Shown: positions 2,945 through 21,054 of the stretch, in pieces | How the letters are laid out: every line of letters begins with the position of its first letter | How positions within the stretch are numbered: position 1 is the stretch's first letter | Source of the DNA: a virus | Length of the DNA: 21,054 nucleotides | IMG/VR virus record: IMGVR_UViG_3300025585_000200 | Coordinates: 1-21,054 of that record | Direction: 5' to 3' (one strand) | The notes under the pieces: generated by a model | Database searches by the model: none | Seen by the model: only the letters and a program-made list of their open reading frames with translations | Told to the model about the DNA's origin: nothing | Translations under genes and position numbers: made by a program

Positions 2945-3325
2945 ATGGCAGATACTACTACCAATTTGTATAAAGAAACCATTGAAGCAGTCAATCCCAT
3001 CTCAACTGTAACTCTTAAAGATGCCGATTGGGGTGCTCAACACAGACTAGGACAAGTTGCCGCTGGCGACACTCTTACCTTTACAGTCAAAACCTATCCA
3101 GCAGTCTTTTCTGTTCAAGGCGTAGGCGCAACGGCAGCAAAGAACGCAAGTGGTTTCATCTTCGTAAATGCTGCTGCAAAAGCACAAGTTTCAGGTACTC
3201 ACCTTGCAGTTTCAGGTACTACAGCAGATGACTTGGTTGTAACCATTTCATCTGGTGTTGTCACTCTGACTTCACCTGCTACTTCTGAAACCAAGACAGA
3301 TGTATGGATTTCACGAATACTCTGA
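2945..3325 (+). CDS. Small probable virion protein downstream of capsid (candidate head decoration protein)
   Basis: 126 residues with AAAGGATAAAATAAC just before the ATG. The sequence is rich in Thr, Val, Ala, Ser and Gly, with alternating hydrophobic and polar residues (TLTFTVKTYPAVFSVQGV, DLVVTISSGVVTLTSP) that predict a small all-beta fold. There is no signal peptide, membrane segment or cysteine. It sits directly behind the capsid gene and is closed by its own strong terminator, so it is probably made in large amounts with the capsid. A capsid decoration or head-fibre protein is the most natural guess, but no family was recognised. Its end (TDVWISRIL) faintly resembles the end of the small protein at 19074 (VDVWIFPQ). 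Confidence 0.75.
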   Translation: MADTTTNLYKETIEAVNPISTVTLKDADWGAQHRLGQVAAGDTLTFTVKTYPAVFSVQGVGATAAKNASGFIFVNAAAKAQVSGTHLAVSGTTADDLVVTISSGVVTLTSPATSETKTDVWISRIL

Positions 3326-3399: not shown

Positions 3400-3846
3400 A
3401 TGCCATATAAAGATCCAGAAGTCAGAAGGCAAAAGTCAAAAGAAAGAAGAAATAAGTTCTTATCAAAGATGACAGAAGAGGAACGAATGGAATATCATCG
3501 TATGCATACTTCTAAATCTTACTATAAACATCTAGATAAACGACAGCAATATGGTAGAGAATACTATAGAAAGAATAAAGATAAGGCATATTATAACAAA
3601 TATCCAAAAGCAACTGAGGATGATTGGAATCATTATGTCTCTTGTACTAATTGTGAATGTTGTAATATAGCATTTAAGAATGATACAGATAAATGTCAAG
3701 ATCATAATCATGATACTGGAGAAATTCGTAAAGTATTATGTCAATTATGCAATAAGATAGAAGGTATGATTAGAGATCCTGAACATGCAGAAGCAATACT
3801 AAATTACAAAAGGAGTACCATACATGGGTGCGCTTTCCCGCCTTGA
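3400..3846 (+). CDS. Endonuclease VII-type HNH nuclease (free-standing)
   Basis: 148 residues; AAGGAG lies 7 bases upstream of the ATG. The C-terminal half matches the recombination endonuclease VII family: a zinc pair C85-x2-C88, the catalytic cluster D101-H102-N103-H104 (CQDHNHDTGE), and a second zinc pair with the conserved Asn (C114-x2-C117-N118, CQLCNKIEG). The family in T4 cuts branched DNA, but copies like this in small phages usually act as site-specific or homing nucleases. The N-terminal half is basic and helical and starts MPYKDPEVRR, like the HNH gene at 1139. It is inserted between the capsid unit and the tail adaptor gene; its last 23 bases overlap the adaptor start and it carries that gene's ribosome binding site. 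A paralog lies at 20070. Confidence 0.9.
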   Translation: MPYKDPEVRRQKSKERRNKFLSKMTEEERMEYHRMHTSKSYYKHLDKRQQYGREYYRKNKDKAYYNKYPKATEDDWNHYVSCTNCECCNIAFKNDTDKCQDHNHDTGEIRKVLCQLCNKIEGMIRDPEHAEAILNYKRSTIHGCAFPP

Positions 3847-10287: not shown

Positions 10288-13200
10288 ATGGGAAGATTAC
10301 CACCATCACAGACACTAAGAGATGTTATTTCAGGCGCATCTGTTCCTGAGATGCCACAAACACCAGTTGGACCTAGTGCTCTACCAAGTAGACAATTCAT
10401 TGAAAGAAGTAATGCAAGCGTTCCTTTGTACGAGGATGCACTAGGAAATCCAACATACACCAACAATCAATCATGGTTTGAAACCTTTACTGATCGTAGG
10501 TTATATGCACAGACTGGTGGAGGAGCAGGTTATTGGGGATATGGTTGGAGAACTCCTACCCGTCTGATGTACGATAGTTACATCGGATTGGAGCAAGACC
10601 CAGCACCAGATCCTCTTTGGACAAGAGAAAAAGAAAAACCAAACTTTGTTGAAGAGAGAGTTAAGTTTCTTGAAAGTCAACTTGGTGATAAAGCAACCAT
10701 CCTTGCTGATGATTATGGTCCAGAGTTTCTAGCAAACCTAGCATCATCTGCTGTTTCTCTAGATGATGAAAGCGCAAGACTTACTTATGCTATGGATTCT
10801 GCATTCGCCAAACGAAGAATTGCGGACTATGATGCTGCTTCTGGTTGGGGAACTTATCTCGGTACAAAGACATTATCTGCCGTTGGTAACTACATGGCAG
10901 TTGATCCTATAACCAGTGTCACAACCATTGCTTCACTCGGTGCAGGTACATTAGTTCCTGCTATTGCAAGAAGTGCTGTTGTTGCAAATCATTTACCTTG
11001 GATAAGCACTCCTGCAAATATGGCAAGAAGTTGGATTGTTTCACATGGACCGACTCTTGCAAAGACACAATTTGCTTTAGCACCTGTTGATGGTGGGTTA
11101 AGTGGATATGCCATATGGGATGGATATAATAGGGACGCATCTCTTCTAAACGGAAACAATGCTATCCTTGATGAAAATCCATACGATGATATTGCTCTTG
11201 GTACAAGTATTGGACTTGCTGGAGGATTGATTGGATTTAGTCTGAACATCCGTCAATTAAATCGTGATGCCGCCATTGAGTCTCTTGCCACCGCAGGATT
11301 GAGTGTGCCAACCAGAGAATCATTGGATTACAGTGTTCGTTATTCTGCTTCACAAAGTAATCTATTACGCAGACTCAAAGCAGCAGGTGTTAGAGAAACA
11401 GATGACATCTATAGAGAAGTAGCAGATCCACGAAGATTACATGAATTGGGTATGAGGCGTGTAGATCAGGTTGAAGATCTTGTGAATTGGGTTGATAGAT
11501 CTAAACCAACACCCGATGAACTCAGATCTTATATTGGAAATAGACATGTCGCTGAACATAATAGACTGGTAACATTTAGAGAAACTATTGATGATGTTGC
11601 TAATAGACATTCAGACGGTTGGATATTGGATGCAGCAGGAAATAGAGTAGCACCAAACTTTGAGAAATATGGTGATGAAATAAATGCTGCATTAAGACAG
11701 GCAACTGATGGCGCAATGAATGCTGCTGGTGTAACTGCAAACCAACAGAGAAGAATCTATGCATTCATGAGAACCAGAGTTGGTATGACCGAACAGGATT
11801 TCCACAGATGGGTTCAAGCAACTGATCCGGGAGAAGCAGAGTTCGGTTTGCTTACACAGTTCATTAACCAGTCATTGGATGGTGAACGAAGAGTAATTCA
11901 AAATAATGCTGGTGGTCCTCTTCGTCTAGATGAAGTGGTTCCATCCGGTGTAAATGCAAATAGAATGTTACACGATGGTGTTGATGAGACAGCAGCAAAT
12001 GTAAGACGCATTATTGATGATGAAAATCAAGTAATGATTGATGGTCTTGATGCTCTTGCCGCAAGCGGTAGGAGAAATCCAGATGCAGAGAAAATCCAAG
12101 AACTTCTCATTCAATTATCAAGAGATTCCCGTGATGTGAATAGACAAGGTTTGCGTGCTACAGCAGGATCACCACAAAGAAATATTCGTAGAATGTATAC
12201 TGCTGATGACACAAAGATCGTAAATAAAATTAATAGACTGCTCCGAAGAGGAGAAGCAAGAGGAGAATTCCCTCCCGGATTTGTTCTCAGTGTACAAAGA
12301 AATATGCAAGCAAGAACTCTTGAAAACAATCTACTCCGCAGAAGATTGCGTGATGGAGAACTTGGTGAGATGCTTGGTTTGATGAACACCAATACTCTTG
12401 CAAAGATGGATGATCCTCGTTTGATTGATGGTCTCTATCCTTTACGAACTGGATTCCGTGATGGATTTGATGAAGTTGAAAACATTGCTTCAGCAAATGC
12501 AAGACGAACCGATGATTATGTTCAGATCAGCAGACTTTCAAGAACACCAGAGGTTGATCTGGAAACAGAATTTAGCAAAGCAAATGCTGCTCTTGGAAGG
12601 TCATTGGAAGATCTGGATACCGCAAGCACTGCTCAAAGAATGCGTCAATTACTTGCACCGGGTGCTGGTCAAGCAAACCTTAACAGTCCTAAAATAACAG
12701 CAAGTGGTACAGCGTGGACAAGCGGAAGTAGAACATTAAGTATTTCTGTAGTTGATCCGAATACAAATCAAACAGTCAGACTGAATATCAATAACAAAGA
12801 AATGTTTGAGAATGTATTTACACCAAATTCCATTGCAGCAGCAGATGCTTCAGGTAATTGGCAAGATCTTGTATTCAAAGGAAATTTATCTGATATTGTT
12901 TCAGATGCGGACAAAGCAGCAACAGCAGCAAAATCAGCATACTCAAGAATATCAAAGTCCAGAGAACTTGGTTATGCATTAGCAGATGAAGACTGGGATT
13001 TCGCTAGAGCAAATGGTCTTATAAGATCCATGCGTGGAATACCGTTTATTGGTAATGGTATATCAGATGTTTTAAACAGAGCAATAGAAACCGGTGGTAG
13101 ATATTTCTCTATTGAGCAAGGATTCCGTTGGGGAAATGATACTCTTGTAGGTACTAGATCAAGACTTTGGTTCAATCCAGAATCCATTACAGGAAGAGGA

Positions 13201-16200
13201 CTTGCCGATAATATTATGATGTTGGCAAATCTTATAGATAGTCCTCACGCTCTTAGGAGAAATGTAGGAAACCTAAGCGATGACAGTATGCATTCTATCC
13301 AACAGATTCGTAACTTTAATGCAGTTGCTGCACAGAGAGTTATCAAGGTATTGCAGAAATATGCAAAAGAAGGTAAACCGTTTGAAGGAAAAGATCACGA
13401 AGCACTAATCAATTTCTTTAGAGCAGCATTGAATCGTGATCCTAACTTTACACAAATTGCAAATAATCTTACACCAAAACAAAAAGAATTAAGAGAAGCA
13501 TTAGAGGATTTCATCCGACCATTTGTAAGAGAAGTGGAAACTGTAAGAGCAAGACAAGGATTGCCTGCCACAGCAGGAGATAATGTTTCACAGATTCTTT
13601 TGAACATGTTGACTAATCCTATTTATGAAAGAATTGTAGCACAGACCGGAAAAGTCAGAACGATTATCAATACCGAACTTACAAGATTGCATACAGAATC
13701 TTTAAGTAGATTAAGAGGTACATCTGGAACTCTGAGTATTCCGGGTCAACGAGGACCTAAACCAAGAACCTTGGATGTTGATAGAAGACTATTAAGTGGA
13801 ACCTATCTTAATTTAGATGAAGTTCAATTAGCAAAAGCACTCAATAGAGATATTGGTGCAGCAACAACAAGAGATGATATATTCAGAATATTGAATAATG
13901 ATATTGGTGATAACGCCCCAATAGGATTCGGTATTCAAAGATTGGTCAATGAATGTTCCGATACAGAAATAGCGAATGCCAGAACTTGGAATGATTTCGT
14001 TGATCTTCTTGAAAGCAAGAAAACCAATCAAGCATGGAATGATTGGGTTCAAGACCAGACAGATTCTGTCTACGGTAAATTTAATCCAGAGAGAAATAGA
14101 TTCAATACTGGTAGAAGAAACTCTCCATTAACCGCAACTCAAATGATTGGTGCGGATCTGATGGATGATAAAATCTATACAGAAATCGCAATGTCTAATG
14201 CTATGCGTCCATTCATGATTCAAAATTTCCAAGATATAGTTGCTGAGTTTGCTAATGGTCTTGGAACCAGAATGAGATTACAAGCACAACTGGATAGAAA
14301 TTTCTTGGGTGGTGCTAATAGAGAAACTGGTATATTCCAGATCTTAAGAGAAACGAGAGAAGGATTCCGTAGACAAGCACAAGAAATTGAAAGACAAACT
14401 GGTGCTTCACCCAGAACACTCATAAAACGAGTTGAAAGAGATATGGATAATCTTGAGGATATGTTGGCACACTCCTTAGGATTTAATGTAGAAACAGCAA
14501 ACAGATATGGTATTTGGGAAACTACATTCAGAATATTGAACGGTACTGTTAGAGCATCTGTTGGTTCATTCTTCGGTCTACAGACTGCAATTGCTGAAGT
14601 ACCCAAAGCATTTCTCTTGAATGCAAACCGCAATGGGTTTGTCAATGCGTTTATTGATACATTAGATTCATTGATTAATTCTCCTGCTGGGTTTGCTGAA
14701 TTGGAAAACTTAGGTTCTGGTATAGAACAGTTTACCCGTAAGTACGCATTGGGTGTGGATAATGAAGCGTACATGGGTGGTATCCAATTAAATACTAGAA
14801 GAATATATGATCCTAGAATTTTAGTTTCTGGAAACCGTAATCCTATTAGACCTTTAGCAAGAGCGGCAGATATCCTTAAAGGTAATGTAATAGATCAACA
14901 AGGATTGACTAGACTTGCCGCAGAACGAGGTAGCGGTCGGTATACAACCGGTGCAGCAAGGGTGGTGGATGCTGGAGTGGGTCTACTGGAAAGCGTTGCT
15001 AATGCCAATACACGCATCGGTGGACAACAATACTTTACCGCACTGGCAAGAAACATTGCAGCAAAGGGAGCAAAGAAAGAACTGGTGAGAAATATAGAAC
15101 TCATTAGAACTTTCTCTAGACAATACAATGCAGCAATGCGTAAACTTCCTGCTAATGCAACCTTTGAAACTAAACTTACAATTCTAAAAGATATTGCAAA
15201 GAAGAATAATCTTGAATGGGGTACGGCACTCCGTCTTGTAAAGCACGGTCTTACCGATGAAGCAGACCTAAAGATTATTTCTCAAGCATTTAGAAACAAG
15301 AGTGTAGTCAGAGATCCGGGATTTGTTACAGAGTTTAAAGAATATAATACCCAAGGTCTAAGAGATTATATTGATAATATTGCAACTAGGAGTGGTGATA
15401 GTCGTCTAGAAAGATCTGATAGGATCATGATGAAGATGACTTCATATCTTGAAGAAGAAGTCAATACCGCTGTTGTATCTGCAACCGGTATCGCCGCAAT
15501 CCCAAATGCAAACTTTATTCAAAGATATGTTGGACAGTTCTCTAACTATGTCAGAGGATTCGTACATCAAGCATATCTCCGTGGTGCTCACCAATCAAAT
15601 ATGATGAAGATTATTGCAATGGGTCTACCAGTTCTTATTGGAGAACTTCTCTACTATGAAGGTAAGAGACTCTTGGATATCAAGGGTTATAAAGGCAAAG
15701 ATACTTACTTAGAAGCGTGGGAAGAAACAAAGAAAGAATGGCGTGAACAACCAGAAATTGCTATTTACAGATTAATATCTAGAATTCCAGCAGGTGGAAA
15801 CTTCCAATCTTTCCTTTTAAATCATATTGTCAACCCAATGGAGATGGAACTATTCCCAAGTATTAGTGGTGGTTATAGACCAATGGGAAGAGATAAACCA
15901 CCGATAACTCAAGATCTTTCTCACAAGTTAATTTATAATGGTATTGATGCTGCTCTCAATACAGCAGCGTTGTCTCAACAAACTGAACTGCAAGCAAGCG
16001 ACATTGTTACACGAAGGACTAATCCATCAGAGATGTGGAGTCCTCCACTTGCTAACTTCAAACCATTTGAGACCAGTCTAGATTTCGTAAATGATCTTAC
16101 AAGTTCAAATCCATATATTGATAACTATGAGAAATGGTTCACATTCCCAAGAGGAGTTTATGGATTCATACCGGGTGTCCGTACATGGCAAATGAATACG

Positions 16201-16299
16201 GCACTTAAAACATTTGGATTAGCACCCGCATATGAGCAAGATCCAAGAGCATACCGTTGGGATCAGCACAATGAAAGAATGCGTAAGTTAGGTTACTAA
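10288..16299 (+). CDS. Giant internal virion protein, T7 gp16-like
   Basis: 2003 residues, well above T7 gp16 (1318). It is mainly helical and hydrophilic, with hydrophobic segments near residues 208-235, 302-320 (IALGTSIGLAGGLIGFSLNI) and 1772-1790 (KIIAMGLPVLIGELLYY) that could insert in a membrane. T7 gp16 has an N-terminal lytic transglycosylase; I see no matching ESG...P catalytic block in the first 200 residues. The C-terminal end, rich in aromatic residues (FPRGVYGFIPGVRTWQMNT), is typical of the region that anchors the inner-membrane part of the ejection channel. The start has AAAGAGG 7 bases ahead. It is the last gene of the ejection cluster, followed by a regulatory gap. Confidence 0.85.
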   Translation: MGRLPPSQTLRDVISGASVPEMPQTPVGPSALPSRQFIERSNASVPLYEDALGNPTYTNNQSWFETFTDRRLYAQTGGGAGYWGYGWRTPTRLMYDSYIGLEQDPAPDPLWTREKEKPNFVEERVKFLESQLGDKATILADDYGPEFLANLASSAVSLDDESARLTYAMDSAFAKRRIADYDAASGWGTYLGTKTLSAVGNYMAVDPITSVTTIASLGAGTLVPAIARSAVVANHLPWISTPANMARSWIVSHGPTLAKTQFALAPVDGGLSGYAIWDGYNRDASLLNGNNAILDENPYDDIALGTSIGLAGGLIGFSLNIRQLNRDAAIESLATAGLSVPTRESLDYSVRYSASQSNLLRRLKAAGVRETDDIYREVADPRRLHELGMRRVDQVEDLVNWVDRSKPTPDELRSYIGNRHVAEHNRLVTFRETIDDVANRHSDGWILDAAGNRVAPNFEKYGDEINAALRQATDGAMNAAGVTANQQRRIYAFMRTRVGMTEQDFHRWVQATDPGEAEFGLLTQFINQSLDGERRVIQNNAGGPLRLDEVVPSGVNANRMLHDGVDETAANVRRIIDDENQVMIDGLDALAASGRRNPDAEKIQELLIQLSRDSRDVNRQGLRATAGSPQRNIRRMYTADDTKIVNKINRLLRRGEARGEFPPGFVLSVQRNMQARTLENNLLRRRLRDGELGEMLGLMNTNTLAKMDDPRLIDGLYPLRTGFRDGFDEVENIASANARRTDDYVQISRLSRTPEVDLETEFSKANAALGRSLEDLDTASTAQRMRQLLAPGAGQANLNSPKITASGTAWTSGSRTLSISVVDPNTNQTVRLNINNKEMFENVFTPNSIAAADASGNWQDLVFKGNLSDIVSDADKAATAAKSAYSRISKSRELGYALADEDWDFARANGLIRSMRGIPFIGNGISDVLNRAIETGGRYFSIEQGFRWGNDTLVGTRSRLWFNPESITGRGLADNIMMLANLIDSPHALRRNVGNLSDDSMHSIQQIRNFNAVAAQRVIKVLQKYAKEGKPFEGKDHEALINFFRAALNRDPNFTQIANNLTPKQKELREALEDFIRPFVREVETVRARQGLPATAGDNVSQILLNMLTNPIYERIVAQTGKVRTIINTELTRLHTESLSRLRGTSGTLSIPGQRGPKPRTLDVDRRLLSGTYLNLDEVQLAKALNRDIGAATTRDDIFRILNNDIGDNAPIGFGIQRLVNECSDTEIANARTWNDFVDLLESKKTNQAWNDWVQDQTDSVYGKFNPERNRFNTGRRNSPLTATQMIGADLMDDKIYTEIAMSNAMRPFMIQNFQDIVAEFANGLGTRMRLQAQLDRNFLGGANRETGIFQILRETREGFRRQAQEIERQTGASPRTLIKRVERDMDNLEDMLAHSLGFNVETANRYGIWETTFRILNGTVRASVGSFFGLQTAIAEVPKAFLLNANRNGFVNAFIDTLDSLINSPAGFAELENLGSGIEQFTRKYALGVDNEAYMGGIQLNTRRIYDPRILVSGNRNPIRPLARAADILKGNVIDQQGLTRLAAERGSGRYTTGAARVVDAGVGLLESVANANTRIGGQQYFTALARNIAAKGAKKELVRNIELIRTFSRQYNAAMRKLPANATFETKLTILKDIAKKNNLEWGTALRLVKHGLTDEADLKIISQAFRNKSVVRDPGFVTEFKEYNTQGLRDYIDNIATRSGDSRLERSDRIMMKMTSYLEEEVNTAVVSATGIAAIPNANFIQRYVGQFSNYVRGFVHQAYLRGAHQSNMMKIIAMGLPVLIGELLYYEGKRLLDIKGYKGKDTYLEAWEETKKEWREQPEIAIYRLISRIPAGGNFQSFLLNHIVNPMEMELFPSISGGYRPMGRDKPPITQDLSHKLIYNGIDAALNTAALSQQTELQASDIVTRRTNPSEMWSPPLANFKPFETSLDFVNDLTSSNPYIDNYEKWFTFPRGVYGFIPGVRTWQMNTALKTFGLAPAYEQDPRAYRWDQHNERMRKLGY

Positions 16300-17946: not shown

Positions 17947-18630
17947 ATGTCAAAGACACAAGTATTACCATCTTATATTGACTTTACTGGTGCATCCAGT
18001 GGACAAGTTCTATCATATAACGGGACTGAAGTAGTTTATATTACACCAAAGACCATCGCCAATGATACCACATGGGCAGCAAAAGGAGATCTGATTGTCG
18101 GTACTGCAAACGATACCGCAGTAGTTCTCTCTTCATCTGCTGTAAATAATCAAGCATTGGTTGTGGATACAACAACACAAACTGGTTTGAAATGGACAAC
18201 TCTTACTACTGCTGCAAAACAGGAAACAAAAGTTGTCAATACATCTACAAGTACCACCCAAGCATTCTATGAAACATCTGCTTTCTCGTTTGTAGTAGGA
18301 CAATGCTTCATTGAATATCTAAATGGTACATCCGCTACCGCAGTTCCTCTTGCTTCGGCATGGGTCAATCTGCGTTCCTATACGGGAACAAAGACAGCAA
18401 ATGTTACCGATAGATATTCTGGTGTATTCGGAACATCTTCAGGTGCTGCTTGCTATTGGAAGTGTGAAAGAAATACCAACGGTACAATCGTCAGAGTCCT
18501 TAGACCTTTCTCTGATGCCAGTGGTGCAAACGGACTTATCTGTACAGGTGGTTTATGTAGTCCTACAAACCTTGACTGGAACACCTCATATCAACTCCGC
18601 ATAACTGCATATGAGGATACCCAATCATGA
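17947..18630 (+). CDS. Second tail fibre-type or tail-associated structural protein
   Basis: 227 residues; AAAGGA lies 8 bases ahead of the ATG, 15 bases after the fibre stop. Residues 41-84 (TWAAKGDLIVGTANDTA, then LVVDTTTQTGLKWTT) carry a motif common in phage fibre and virion-attached proteins (AKGDLIVGTGN.TA...L..D....G..W). The rest is a beta-rich domain with four Cys (near 165-200), probably a globular tip. It may be an accessory fibre, fibre tip or assembly factor working with the protein encoded just upstream. The ATGA overlap with the next gene suggests translational coupling. Confidence 0.75.
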   Translation: MSKTQVLPSYIDFTGASSGQVLSYNGTEVVYITPKTIANDTTWAAKGDLIVGTANDTAVVLSSSAVNNQALVVDTTTQTGLKWTTLTTAAKQETKVVNTSTSTTQAFYETSAFSFVVGQCFIEYLNGTSATAVPLASAWVNLRSYTGTKTANVTDRYSGVFGTSSGAACYWKCERNTNGTIVRVLRPFSDASGANGLICTGGLCSPTNLDWNTSYQLRITAYEDTQS

Positions 18631-18848
18631 TAGCATCTGAAATACTACAGTTCACCATTCTCTGTACTGCATTCTTTGCAGCATGGAAACTGGATGCAAT
18701 TAACCGTACGCTGGGTGAAGTTACCACACAGATATCATATCTCAAAGAAGAAGTCATGGAACTTAAGGAATCATTTAATGATATCAGCAAAAGAGTAGAG
18801 AAAGCAGAAGAAGATCTCAAGAAAATAATCAAACTAGAGGAGAAATAA
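18627..18848 (+). CDS. Small membrane-anchored coiled-coil protein (candidate holin or spanin)
   Basis: 73 residues. One hydrophobic segment at about 4-20 (SEILQFTILCTAFFAAW) is followed by a long amphipathic, strongly charged helix (28-72) with heptad-like spacing. It lies between the fibre genes and the small terminase, the place of the T7 holin gene 17.5, so a lysis role is likely. The layout of one N-terminal span plus a coiled coil is also that of inner-membrane spanins such as Rz, but those are usually about twice as long. Holin is inferred from position, spanin from shape; the sequence alone does not settle it. The ATG overlaps the previous stop (ATGA). Confidence 0.7.
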   Translation: MIASEILQFTILCTAFFAAWKLDAINRTLGEVTTQISYLKEEVMELKESFNDISKRVEKAEEDLKKIIKLEEK

Positions 18849-18849
18849 A

Positions 18850-19074
18850 ATGGATAATAAAGAAGATAAACTACGACTTATGTGGGATATGACTGCTGAT
18901 AGCATCATAGACGCACTACAGAACCCAGAGAGAAACAGTCCGGGTTGGGTTCAATGTGCTCTTCGTTTCTTGCAAGACAATGGTGCAGAGGCATTATCTC
19001 TTCCTAATAACAAGAAGGATCAGATAAATAAATTGTTGCCTTTCCCCAAGTTAACTGAAAGGAAGATAGGTTAA
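18850..19074 (+). CDS. Terminase small subunit (DNA maturase A, T7 gp18-like)
   Basis: 74 residues (T7 gp18 is 89); AGAGGAG lies 8 bases upstream. It is helical and charged, with the pattern ADSIIDALQNPERNSPG, then ALRFLQDNGAEALSLP and INKLLPFPKLTE. The [AL]RFL.DNG...LP and LLPF pieces are typical of small terminase subunits of T7-type phages. The protein recognises the concatemer DNA and passes it to the large subunit. The large subunit begins 1.5 kb downstream, separated by four inserted genes. The stop overlaps the next start (TAATG). Confidence 0.8.
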   Translation: MDNKEDKLRLMWDMTADSIIDALQNPERNSPGWVQCALRFLQDNGAEALSLPNNKKDQINKLLPFPKLTERKIG

Positions 19075-19388
19075 TGATGAATGTACAAACGATTTGTAAG
19101 AATGAAGATCTTTTATTGGGTACTTCAAAGAGTACAGTAACAAAAGTTCTCTCGTTACAGAATTGGGAACAGTCAGTAATGACCGCTCAATTCACATCTA
19201 CTGATGGTCTTGCCACATGCCAATATCAAGGTAGATTACACCCAAGCGCACCATGGGTAAACCTAACTGCAATTGCGTCTGCACCCGGTATAGAATCATT
19301 ACCTAAGGTTCCCGAAGTTAAATTATTATTAGATGGTACTGCGATGTCAGTAGATGCCAAAGTAGATGTATGGATATTCCCTCAATAA
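19074..19388 (+). CDS. Small beta-rich protein, paralog 1 of 3
   Basis: 104 residues, ATG overlapping the TerS stop by one base (TAATG); an alternative ATG lies one codon on. GGAAG is 11 bases upstream. Its core motif QGRLHPSAPWVNL (residues 52-64) and the later PEVKLLLDG (80-88) recur at the same positions in the two following genes. Alternating Val/Thr/Ser residues predict a beta-sandwich. It ends VDVWIFPQ. No signal, membrane or catalytic features are seen. A virion surface protein is possible; function unknown. Confidence 0.75.
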   Translation: MMNVQTICKNEDLLLGTSKSTVTKVLSLQNWEQSVMTAQFTSTDGLATCQYQGRLHPSAPWVNLTAIASAPGIESLPKVPEVKLLLDGTAMSVDAKVDVWIFPQ

Positions 19389-19401
19389 GAAAGGTATTTA
19401 A

Positions 19402-19722
19402 ATGAGAACTCAACGACAAACACAAACAAGAAATAATGGTGAAACAACCACCTATACTTTCCAACTGGATCGTAATCCAAAGAATCCAAAAGTAATGATC
19501 AGTATTGATGTCAGCGGAACTGGTAGTAAAACAACCACCGGTAAAGCAATTAAGGGAAGAATGCATCCAGACGCTCCGTGGGTCACGCTTGCGTCCCCAT
19601 CAAATGCAACTGCCGCAACCATAAATGTTTTCACGACTGTCTGTCCTGAATATCAAATAACGATGGTAAATGGCGGTGGCGTAGGTGTCACTCAAACCCA
19701 TTCAGTAGCAGTTTGCAATTAA
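19402..19722 (+). CDS. Small beta-rich protein, paralog 2 of 3
   Basis: 106 residues with AAAGG about 10 bases upstream of the ATG. KGRMHPDAPWVTL (51-63) and PEYQITMVNGG (82-92) align with paralogs 1 and 3. The first 20 residues are polar (Arg, Gln, Thr, Asn) and unlike those of the neighbours, so the N-terminus may be the variable, attachment or partner-specific part. Otherwise similar in length and predicted fold. Unknown function. Confidence 0.75.
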   Translation: MRTQRQTQTRNNGETTTYTFQLDRNPKNPKVMISIDVSGTGSKTTTGKAIKGRMHPDAPWVTLASPSNATAATINVFTTVCPEYQITMVNGGGVGVTQTHSVAVCN

Positions 19723-19732
19723 GGAGAAATAA

Positions 19733-20059
19733 ATGAAAGTCAAGAAAAGTTCAGTCATATCTCACCCCACCAGTACCGGTACACTTACGACCGATGCTGT
19801 AAATATGGATCAAGCATCTTATTGTGATGCCCTCACAATCCAGTTATCTTGTAACTCAGCGTATACAGGGACCGTCACGGTACAAGGAAGATACCACCCA
19901 GAACATGATTGGGTTGCTTTAGGTTCAGCGTTAACCGTAAACAGTGCCGCCACCAGAGACCAAATATTTTCAAGGGATTATGCTCCAGAGGTTAGATTGA
20001 GTTCAACCAGATCGTCTGGTGCTGGTGCTGGAACCGTAACCGCTTGGTTCGGTCGCTAA
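19733..20059 (+). CDS. Small beta-rich protein, paralog 3 of 3
   Basis: 108 residues; AAGGAGA is 6 bases ahead of the ATG. QGRYHPEHDWVAL (51-63) and PEVRLSSTRSSG (85-96) match the other two copies; the end GTVTAWFGR parallels the final strand of paralog 1. Spacing between the three genes is 10-13 bases, so they are co-translated from one message. They occupy the interval where T7 carries its Rz/Rz1 lysis genes (18.5/18.7), yet look like structural proteins. Unknown function. Confidence 0.75.
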   Translation: MKVKKSSVISHPTSTGTLTTDAVNMDQASYCDALTIQLSCNSAYTGTVTVQGRYHPEHDWVALGSALTVNSAATRDQIFSRDYAPEVRLSSTRSSGAGAGTVTAWFGR

Positions 20060-20069
20060 GGAGAAATAT

Positions 20070-20606
20070 ATGGAAGAGAAGAAATGTACAAAGTGTGGAA
20101 TAGAGAAACCACTAAGTGAGTTTTATAGTAAGCGTACCCAATGTAAAGAGTGTGTTAGAAAATGCGTCACTAAATACGCAAAAGAAAATCCTGAAAAGAT
20201 CAAAGAAAATAATGCAAGATGGCGCAAAGAAAACTATGAAAGAAAACAAACAATGGATCAAGAATGCTATAAACGCAATCCACAAAAGTACAAAGACTCT
20301 GCAAAGAAATGGGCAAAGGAAAATCCTGAAGATAGAAAAAGAATTCTTTGGTTTAATAAATATAAAGGAACTTATGACCAGTGGGAAGATTATAGAACAG
20401 CGACCCATTGCTCTTGTTGTGGTGTAGAGTTCACGGATAAGAATAAGAAATGTCAAGATCACAATCACGACACTGGAGAAGTCCGAGATGTTATTTGTAG
20501 ATTCTGCAATGACATTGAAGGTAAAGTAAAAGATCATCCAGAAAGATTAATCCACATGATGGGATACTTACTAAAATGGCAGACGAAGACTATTATAGAG
20601 AAATAA
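20070..20606 (+). CDS. Endonuclease VII-type HNH nuclease with N-terminal zinc finger
   Basis: 178 residues; AAGGAG is 8 bases upstream. An N-terminal zinc-binding motif C6-x2-C9 ... C25-x2-C28 (CTKCGIEKPLSEFYSKRTQCKEC) is followed by a basic repetitive helix region (KENPEK, KENYER, KENPED; 38-90). The nuclease core repeats the layout of the gene at 3400: C114-x2-C117, D130-H131-N132-H133 (CQDHNHDTGE) and C143-x2-C146-N147 (CRFCNDIEG). The zinc finger probably gives DNA specificity. The gene is inserted directly before the large terminase gene and overlaps its start by 31 bases. Probably a homing nuclease, though help with packaging or DNA branch removal cannot be excluded. Confidence 0.9.
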   Translation: MEEKKCTKCGIEKPLSEFYSKRTQCKECVRKCVTKYAKENPEKIKENNARWRKENYERKQTMDQECYKRNPQKYKDSAKKWAKENPEDRKRILWFNKYKGTYDQWEDYRTATHCSCCGVEFTDKNKKCQDHNHDTGEVRDVICRFCNDIEGKVKDHPERLIHMMGYLLKWQTKTIIEK

Positions 20607-21054
20607 GAGACGACTTCAGGAATTTCCTCTGCGTTGTTTGGGACGCACTAAGTTTACCTCAACCCGCATTAGTACAGTACGACATTGCTGATTACCTTCA
20701 GAACGGTGGTGATAGAGTAATGGTGCAGGCAATGCGTGGGTGTGGTAAAAGTTATATCACCAGTGCCTATTGTGTGTGGTTATTATACAGAGATCCTAAT
20801 ACCACAATCATTTCTATGTCTGCCGTACAAAACCGTGCTCGTGAGTTCATCAGACTCTGTAGAAGAATTATAGACAGTGTAGACTTTCTCAGTCACTTGA
20901 TACCAGATGTAGAAGATAGAGATGGTGCTGATCGCTTTGATGTGGGTGCAAGATCTAGACCAGACAAGAACCCATCGGTTGCTGCTTATGGAATCAAGTC
21001 TATGATCACGGGTGCTCACTGTGATATTATTGTTGCAGATGATATTGAGATTCC
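20576..21054 (+). CDS. Terminase large subunit, N-terminal part (T7 gp19-like)
   Basis: The frame runs off the window end, giving 159 residues. The ATPase motifs are clear: Walker A at 53-59 (MRGCGKS) in VMVQAMRGCGKSYITSAY, an adenine/coupling stretch (TTIISMSAVQNRAREF) and Walker B at 149-158 (CDIIVADDIE). This is the motor that drives DNA into the procapsid; the nuclease domain lies beyond the window. ATG 20576 is the first ATG after an in-frame TAA at 20522. It has only a weak GGGA 11 bases upstream and overlaps the preceding nuclease gene by 31 bases, so initiation may depend on coupling with that gene. Confidence 0.92.
   Translation, partial: MADEDYYREIRDDFRNFLCVVWDALSLPQPALVQYDIADYLQNGGDRVMVQAMRGCGKSYITSAYCVWLLYRDPNTTIISMSAVQNRAREFIRLCRRIIDSVDFLSHLIPDVEDRDGADRFDVGARSRPDKNPSVAAYGIKSMITGAHCDIIVADDIEI

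Follow-up and report, generated by a model that had tools for sequence, protein, structure and literature searches.

A tandem array of small predicted beta-sandwich proteins beside the terminase genes of uncultured T7-like phages

Introduction

What are the three small adjacent genes that follow TerS in an uncultured T7-like phage, and what might their products do? The window, by which we mean the whole stretch of DNA analysed, is a complete IMG/VR virus record of 21,054 bases. It carries a T7-like late region that encodes a scaffold, the MCP, two tail tube proteins, large internal proteins, a fibre bearing the T7 gp17 N-domain, and TerS, and that runs into the 5' part of TerL. The MCP is at most 34% identical to that of the best-ranked cultured phages, and there were no cultured members of the clade among 50,697 phage records.

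Results

The three array genes are homologous to one another, as judged from their alignments. They are intact tandem reading frames on the + strand, as first described (Table 1); gene 1 has an alternative start, ATG 19077, that gives a protein of 103 residues and agrees better with the relatives. The two motifs said to be shared were found: [QK]GR.HP...WV.L at residues 52-64 of gene 1 and 51-63 of genes 2 and 3, and PE[VY] starting at residues 80, 82 and 85, respectively. The first motif is exact and confined to these genes; a scan of six frames found it nowhere else in the window, even in loose form. Paralogy was upheld by the pairwise local alignment scores (z = 7.7, 6.2 and 9.2), which were reached by 0 of 2000 shuffles for every pair, and in phmmer searches no shuffled decoy got to the reporting limit.

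Table 1. Features around the terminase genes of the window
Feature	Coordinates	Strand	Basis
73-aa ORF, N-terminal membrane-like segment and coiled coil	18627..18848	+	marginal phrog_739 Rz-like match, E 0.0045
TerS (T7 gp18-like DNA packaging protein), upstream border of array	18850..19074	+	Pfam PF11123, E 3e-4
Array gene 1 (slot 1), 104 aa	19074..19388	+	motif QGRLHPSAPWVNL at 19227-19265; ORF, family HMM, AF2 model pLDDT 86
Array gene 2 (slot 2), 106 aa	19402..19722	+	motif KGRMHPDAPWVTL at 19552-19590; ORF, family HMM, slot-2 clade in tree
Array gene 3 (slot 4 of five-gene arrays), 108 aa	19733..20059	+	motif QGRYHPEHDWVAL at 19883-19921; ORF, family HMM, AF2 pLDDT 88, pTM 0.77
Free-standing endonuclease VII-type HNH gene, array/TerL gap	20070..20606	+	PF02945, E 3e-13
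TerL, 5' part, runs off record	20576..21052	+	phrog_38, E 7e-35

The array follows TerS directly, in the order fibre, second fibre gene, TM gene, TerS, array. The original prediction placed it between the terminase subunits, with the correction that the third gene is followed by the HNH gene, which abuts TerL. Two further free-standing endonuclease VII / HNH genes lie at 1139-1579 and 3400-3846. The three flank the MCP region and TerL and are likely homing-type genes at module borders. The second fibre-like gene (17947-18630, MSKTQVLPSYIDFTGASSGQVL...) had no match at E 0.01 or better in PHROG and Pfam; it is found in three of the related phages (L003, L004 and L005) and missing from L007. At the T7 gp16 position, 10288-16299 encodes a 2003-aa internal virion protein with no match at E 1e-5 by tblastn against the 50,697 phage records. 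A 126-aa beta-like ORF directly 3' of the MCP gene (2945-3325) is a candidate decoration protein; it was tried as a member of the array family and rejected, as it did not match the family profile.

The array is conserved in the nearest relatives. A TerL scan of viral contigs found five contigs at 67-73% identity, with the remainder at 51% or less; the five represent four phages, because L005 and L006 are one phage sampled in two metagenomes. A TerS-based scan added no clade members. The TerS proteins of the relatives are 64-75% identical to that of the window. Each of the four relatives has family members in tandem between TerS and TerL, so that all five phages, the window included, have the array in their late packaging region. 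There are five copies in L003, L004 and L005 and three in L007 and in the window, where slots 3 and 5 are absent and the HNH gene, not present in the relatives, occupies the expected slot 5 site. With the family HMM, all array genes gave E-values no higher than 7e-19, and about 75 more distant TerL loci gave no significant match. All three window genes are intact and conserved in the relatives, whose frames are also intact.

Slot order is largely kept across the phages, as judged by sequence comparison. Of 72 comparisons between phages, 58 had their best match in the corresponding slot. In the tree, slots 2 and 5 formed clades and slot 4 without L007 formed a weaker one; slot 1 was too diverged to be resolved. 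The conserved order indicates that the duplications are probably older than the split of these phages, and the retention of paralogs in order argues for distinct roles rather than dosage. The N-termini, which had been described as differing, are indeed variable; they can be aligned within slots and are therefore diverged rather than unrelated.

The array slots appear to be under purifying selection while diverging as fast as fibre genes. Between L004 and L005, identity was 39-71% for the array slots, compared to 46% for the second fibre gene, 76% for TerS and 94% for TerL. For the slots, dN was 0.23-0.66 and dS was 0.87-1.67 (NG86); these values are rough because they come from one phage pair with dS near saturation. 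The finding that dN was below dS indicates purifying selection.

The array proteins are predicted to have the fold of YomS and the C-terminal domain of XepA. AlphaFold2 models of gene 3 (pLDDT 88.2, pTM 0.77) and gene 1 (pLDDT 86.3, pTM 0.72) were all-beta, had no long helices and were 8-strand beta-sandwiches with identical strand order; the two models share one 21-sequence input, in differing order, and are not fully independent. The beta-rich character was borne out in these two genes, which have the same fold and not unrelated ones; gene 2 belongs to the family by sequence. The top solved structures for both models were XepA (residues ~175-278) and YomS, with Z of 9.2 and 9.2 for gene 3 and 10.8 and 10.6 for gene 1, and rmsd of 2.1-2.5 over 89-93 residues, spanning the whole protein. 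The margin over unrelated structures was about 1.5 Z for gene 1 and about 0.6, a tie, for gene 3, and Foldseek E-values against PDB were all above 0.001. The window proteins are single-domain (103-108 aa) and the N-terminal domain needed for XepA-type cytotoxicity is missing.

Among lower-ranked matches were phage cement proteins (KHP40, Z 8.6, and Pam1, Z 8.1, in the gene 3 search; BPP-1, Z 8.0, in the gene 1 search). The shared beta-sandwich is common, and the modelled likeness to cement proteins is only weakly specific. Gene 3 also matched a Pan3 'needle' chain (Z 7.9), and sugar-binding modules appeared for both models. Matches to GOLD domains, CBMs, PirA and botulinum hemagglutinin were taken as the common beta-sandwich arrangement. 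The best BFVD matches were two unnamed viral proteins of ~100 aa (TM 0.75-0.85, gene 3) and roseophage protein A0A191VYR2.

The sole apparent relative at the sequence level is PHROG 34406, a family of unknown function from N4-like roseophages. The family HMM matched gp38 of roseophage RD-1410Ws-07 (E 2.7e-5; hhalign 92%) over the GR.H...WV.L region; gp38 belongs to PHROG 34406 (E 9e-68) and, based on its phage and length (97 aa), appears to be A0A191VYR2. In the other direction the PHROG 34406 profile gave weak matches in 7 of 21 family members; for the window genes, E was 0.015 for gene 1 and 0.15 for gene 2, and gene 3 had no match. The protein is present in eight N4-like roseophage records, encoded in the middle (early/middle) region near an N4 gp14-like gene and outside the structural modules.

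Other searches identified no further relatives. The array genes had no match in Pfam, PDB sequences or cultured T7-like phages, and tblastn with window genes 1 and 3, L003 slot 4, L005 slot 5 and L007 slot 2 against the 50,697 phage records found none. Single-protein and slot-alignment scans of viral contigs recovered only the known clade, a motif scan of these contigs added only the roseophage relative, and a slot 5 scan of genome contigs found none. Sub-threshold Pfam matches (Tocopherol_cycl, AIM24, LT-IIB and others) were taken as chance. A 141-aa gene upstream of TerS in L067, L078, L080 and L081 and Lo5R7ANS gp61 looked similar by eye, but neither stood up to profile comparison (hhalign probability 3% and 2%).

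The suggestion that the array replaces the Rz/Rz1 genes of T7 holds for position only. In the distant T7-like loci inspected, the TerS-TerL interval was often empty or contained HNH genes, small basic ORFs or fibre/esterase genes, a variability that indicates a general cargo site. In addition, the membrane and coiled-coil ORF upstream of TerS could be the holin or Rz-like spanin of the clade; its profile matches are marginal. This ORF is 19-59% identical among relatives, as if swapped between phages. Spanin profiles (PHROG, Pfam) did not match the array genes.

The TerS-TerL interval can host virion adhesin genes. In T7-like phage Lo5R7ANS and in metagenomic locus L076 it contains an esterase-like protein (in L076 by a sub-cutoff GDSL match), and in L076 also a small member of a tail fibre family. 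Mesorhizobium phage Lo5R7ANS (L087:4327-5840) has genes for a beta-like protein of 87 aa and for an esterase resembling lysophospholipase L1 immediately before TerL; the former is found again beside the capsid assembly gene in Rhizobium phage RHph_I20.

Discussion

The array is a real, conserved and uncurated protein family in three or five tandem copies, with a fold that has known relatives. We infer its function from fold and position, and likewise infer oligomerisation, virion location, surface exposure and contact with host or capsid; likeness of fold does not in itself reveal function. Tentatively, we favour the possibility that the array proteins are small ring-forming proteins of the virion surface, serving as decoration or as an adhesin base. 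In this reading, a single fast-evolving family of ~105-residue predicted beta-sandwiches has expanded within the late operon, its three or five paralogs keeping a set order. Each protein would form a small cyclic oligomer on the virion surface, either a capsid decoration or the base of a host-binding protrusion, and the paralogs would serve to diversify the surface subunits and not to raise the dose. This role is favoured by the pentamers of XepA and YomS and the hexamer of HFTV1 (see below), the late-operon position, the fast divergence, and the finding of esterase and fibre-family genes at this site in other T7-like phages. It is very doubtful that the paralogs assemble together into a single mixed ring or protrusion in which each slot has its own place, with three or five distinct subunits. 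Such a ring would recall the five-fold rings of YomS and XepA and, if real, would be a hetero-oligomeric surface structure without a known counterpart among T7-like phages.

Three other functions were considered. The proteins might cap or extend the tail or fibres as tail-tip or fibre-associated subunits that contact receptors, the paralogs giving several specificities. The gene order from fibre to array, the fibre-like divergence, the adhesin-like genes at this interval in other T7-like phages and the fold matches to the 'needle' chain and sugar-binding modules are consistent with this, but XepA, YomS and the cement proteins scored higher and the array proteins have no fibre-attachment domain or repeat, and we consider it unlikely. 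We also think it improbable that they are late-acting intracellular proteins outside the virion (assembly factors or host-directed), as the roseophage relative may be. That relative is encoded in the early/middle region; in RPP1, gel-band mass spectrometry identified 13 virion proteins, and the copy there (orf45) was missing from them (PMC4193335). This absence counts most strongly against a place in the virion; it is weakened by the large divergence and by a method that could miss a 97-aa protein, and the array itself is in the late packaging region in every phage of the clade.

An accessory role in lysis, with XepA-like action on the membrane or envelope, seems very unlikely. The best fold matches do come from prophage lytic cassettes, and the array is near the holin- or spanin-like ORF, at the position of Rz/Rz1 in T7. 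However, XepA was cytotoxic in plaque assays only in its two-domain form and YomS, single-domain like the array proteins, was not (PMC6834076). Reading the three sequences by eye revealed no signal peptide or membrane segment, and lysis gives no clear need for three to five diverged copies.

Two things are added here: a family of proteins that lacks a curated description, and an uncultured clade of T7-like phages in which an array of three or five paralogs occupies a fixed site between the terminase genes. Should the array proteins prove to be part of the virion, the YomS/XepA fold, so far poorly understood, would be linked to a role at the virion surface, and the array would exemplify how gene duplication lets a small phage diversify its surface.

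The nearest solved relatives form cyclic oligomers, and more distant ones sit on phage capsids. YomS of SPbeta and the C-terminal domain of XepA of PBSX (PDB 6i5o, 6i56) are, like the array proteins, single beta-sandwiches of ~105 aa from late phage genes near lysis genes. Both form pentamers; XepA was reported absent from mature phage, a point against the favoured role, and the authors consider capsid binding as well as membrane action (PMC6834076). They differ from the array proteins in sequence (7-14% identity) and are not in tandem arrays. A PDB profile search found no sequence match to XepA or YomS, neither being among hits up to E 10, nor to cement proteins. The latter (KHP40/KHP30, Pam1, BPP-1) resemble the array proteins as small beta-sandwiches (Z about 8, near the common background for this fold), but are single genes without sequence similarity. 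PHROG 34406 is also single-copy, in contrast to the array. The T7 Rz/Rz1 spanins have an N-terminal membrane helix or lipobox and a periplasmic coiled coil, features not seen in the predicted structures of genes 1 and 3. The turret base protein of HFTV1, an archaeal siphovirus, is a hexamer seated on capsid hexamers, and its only probable structural homolog is XepA (Z 8.1; PMC12494034); its likeness to the array proteins runs through XepA.
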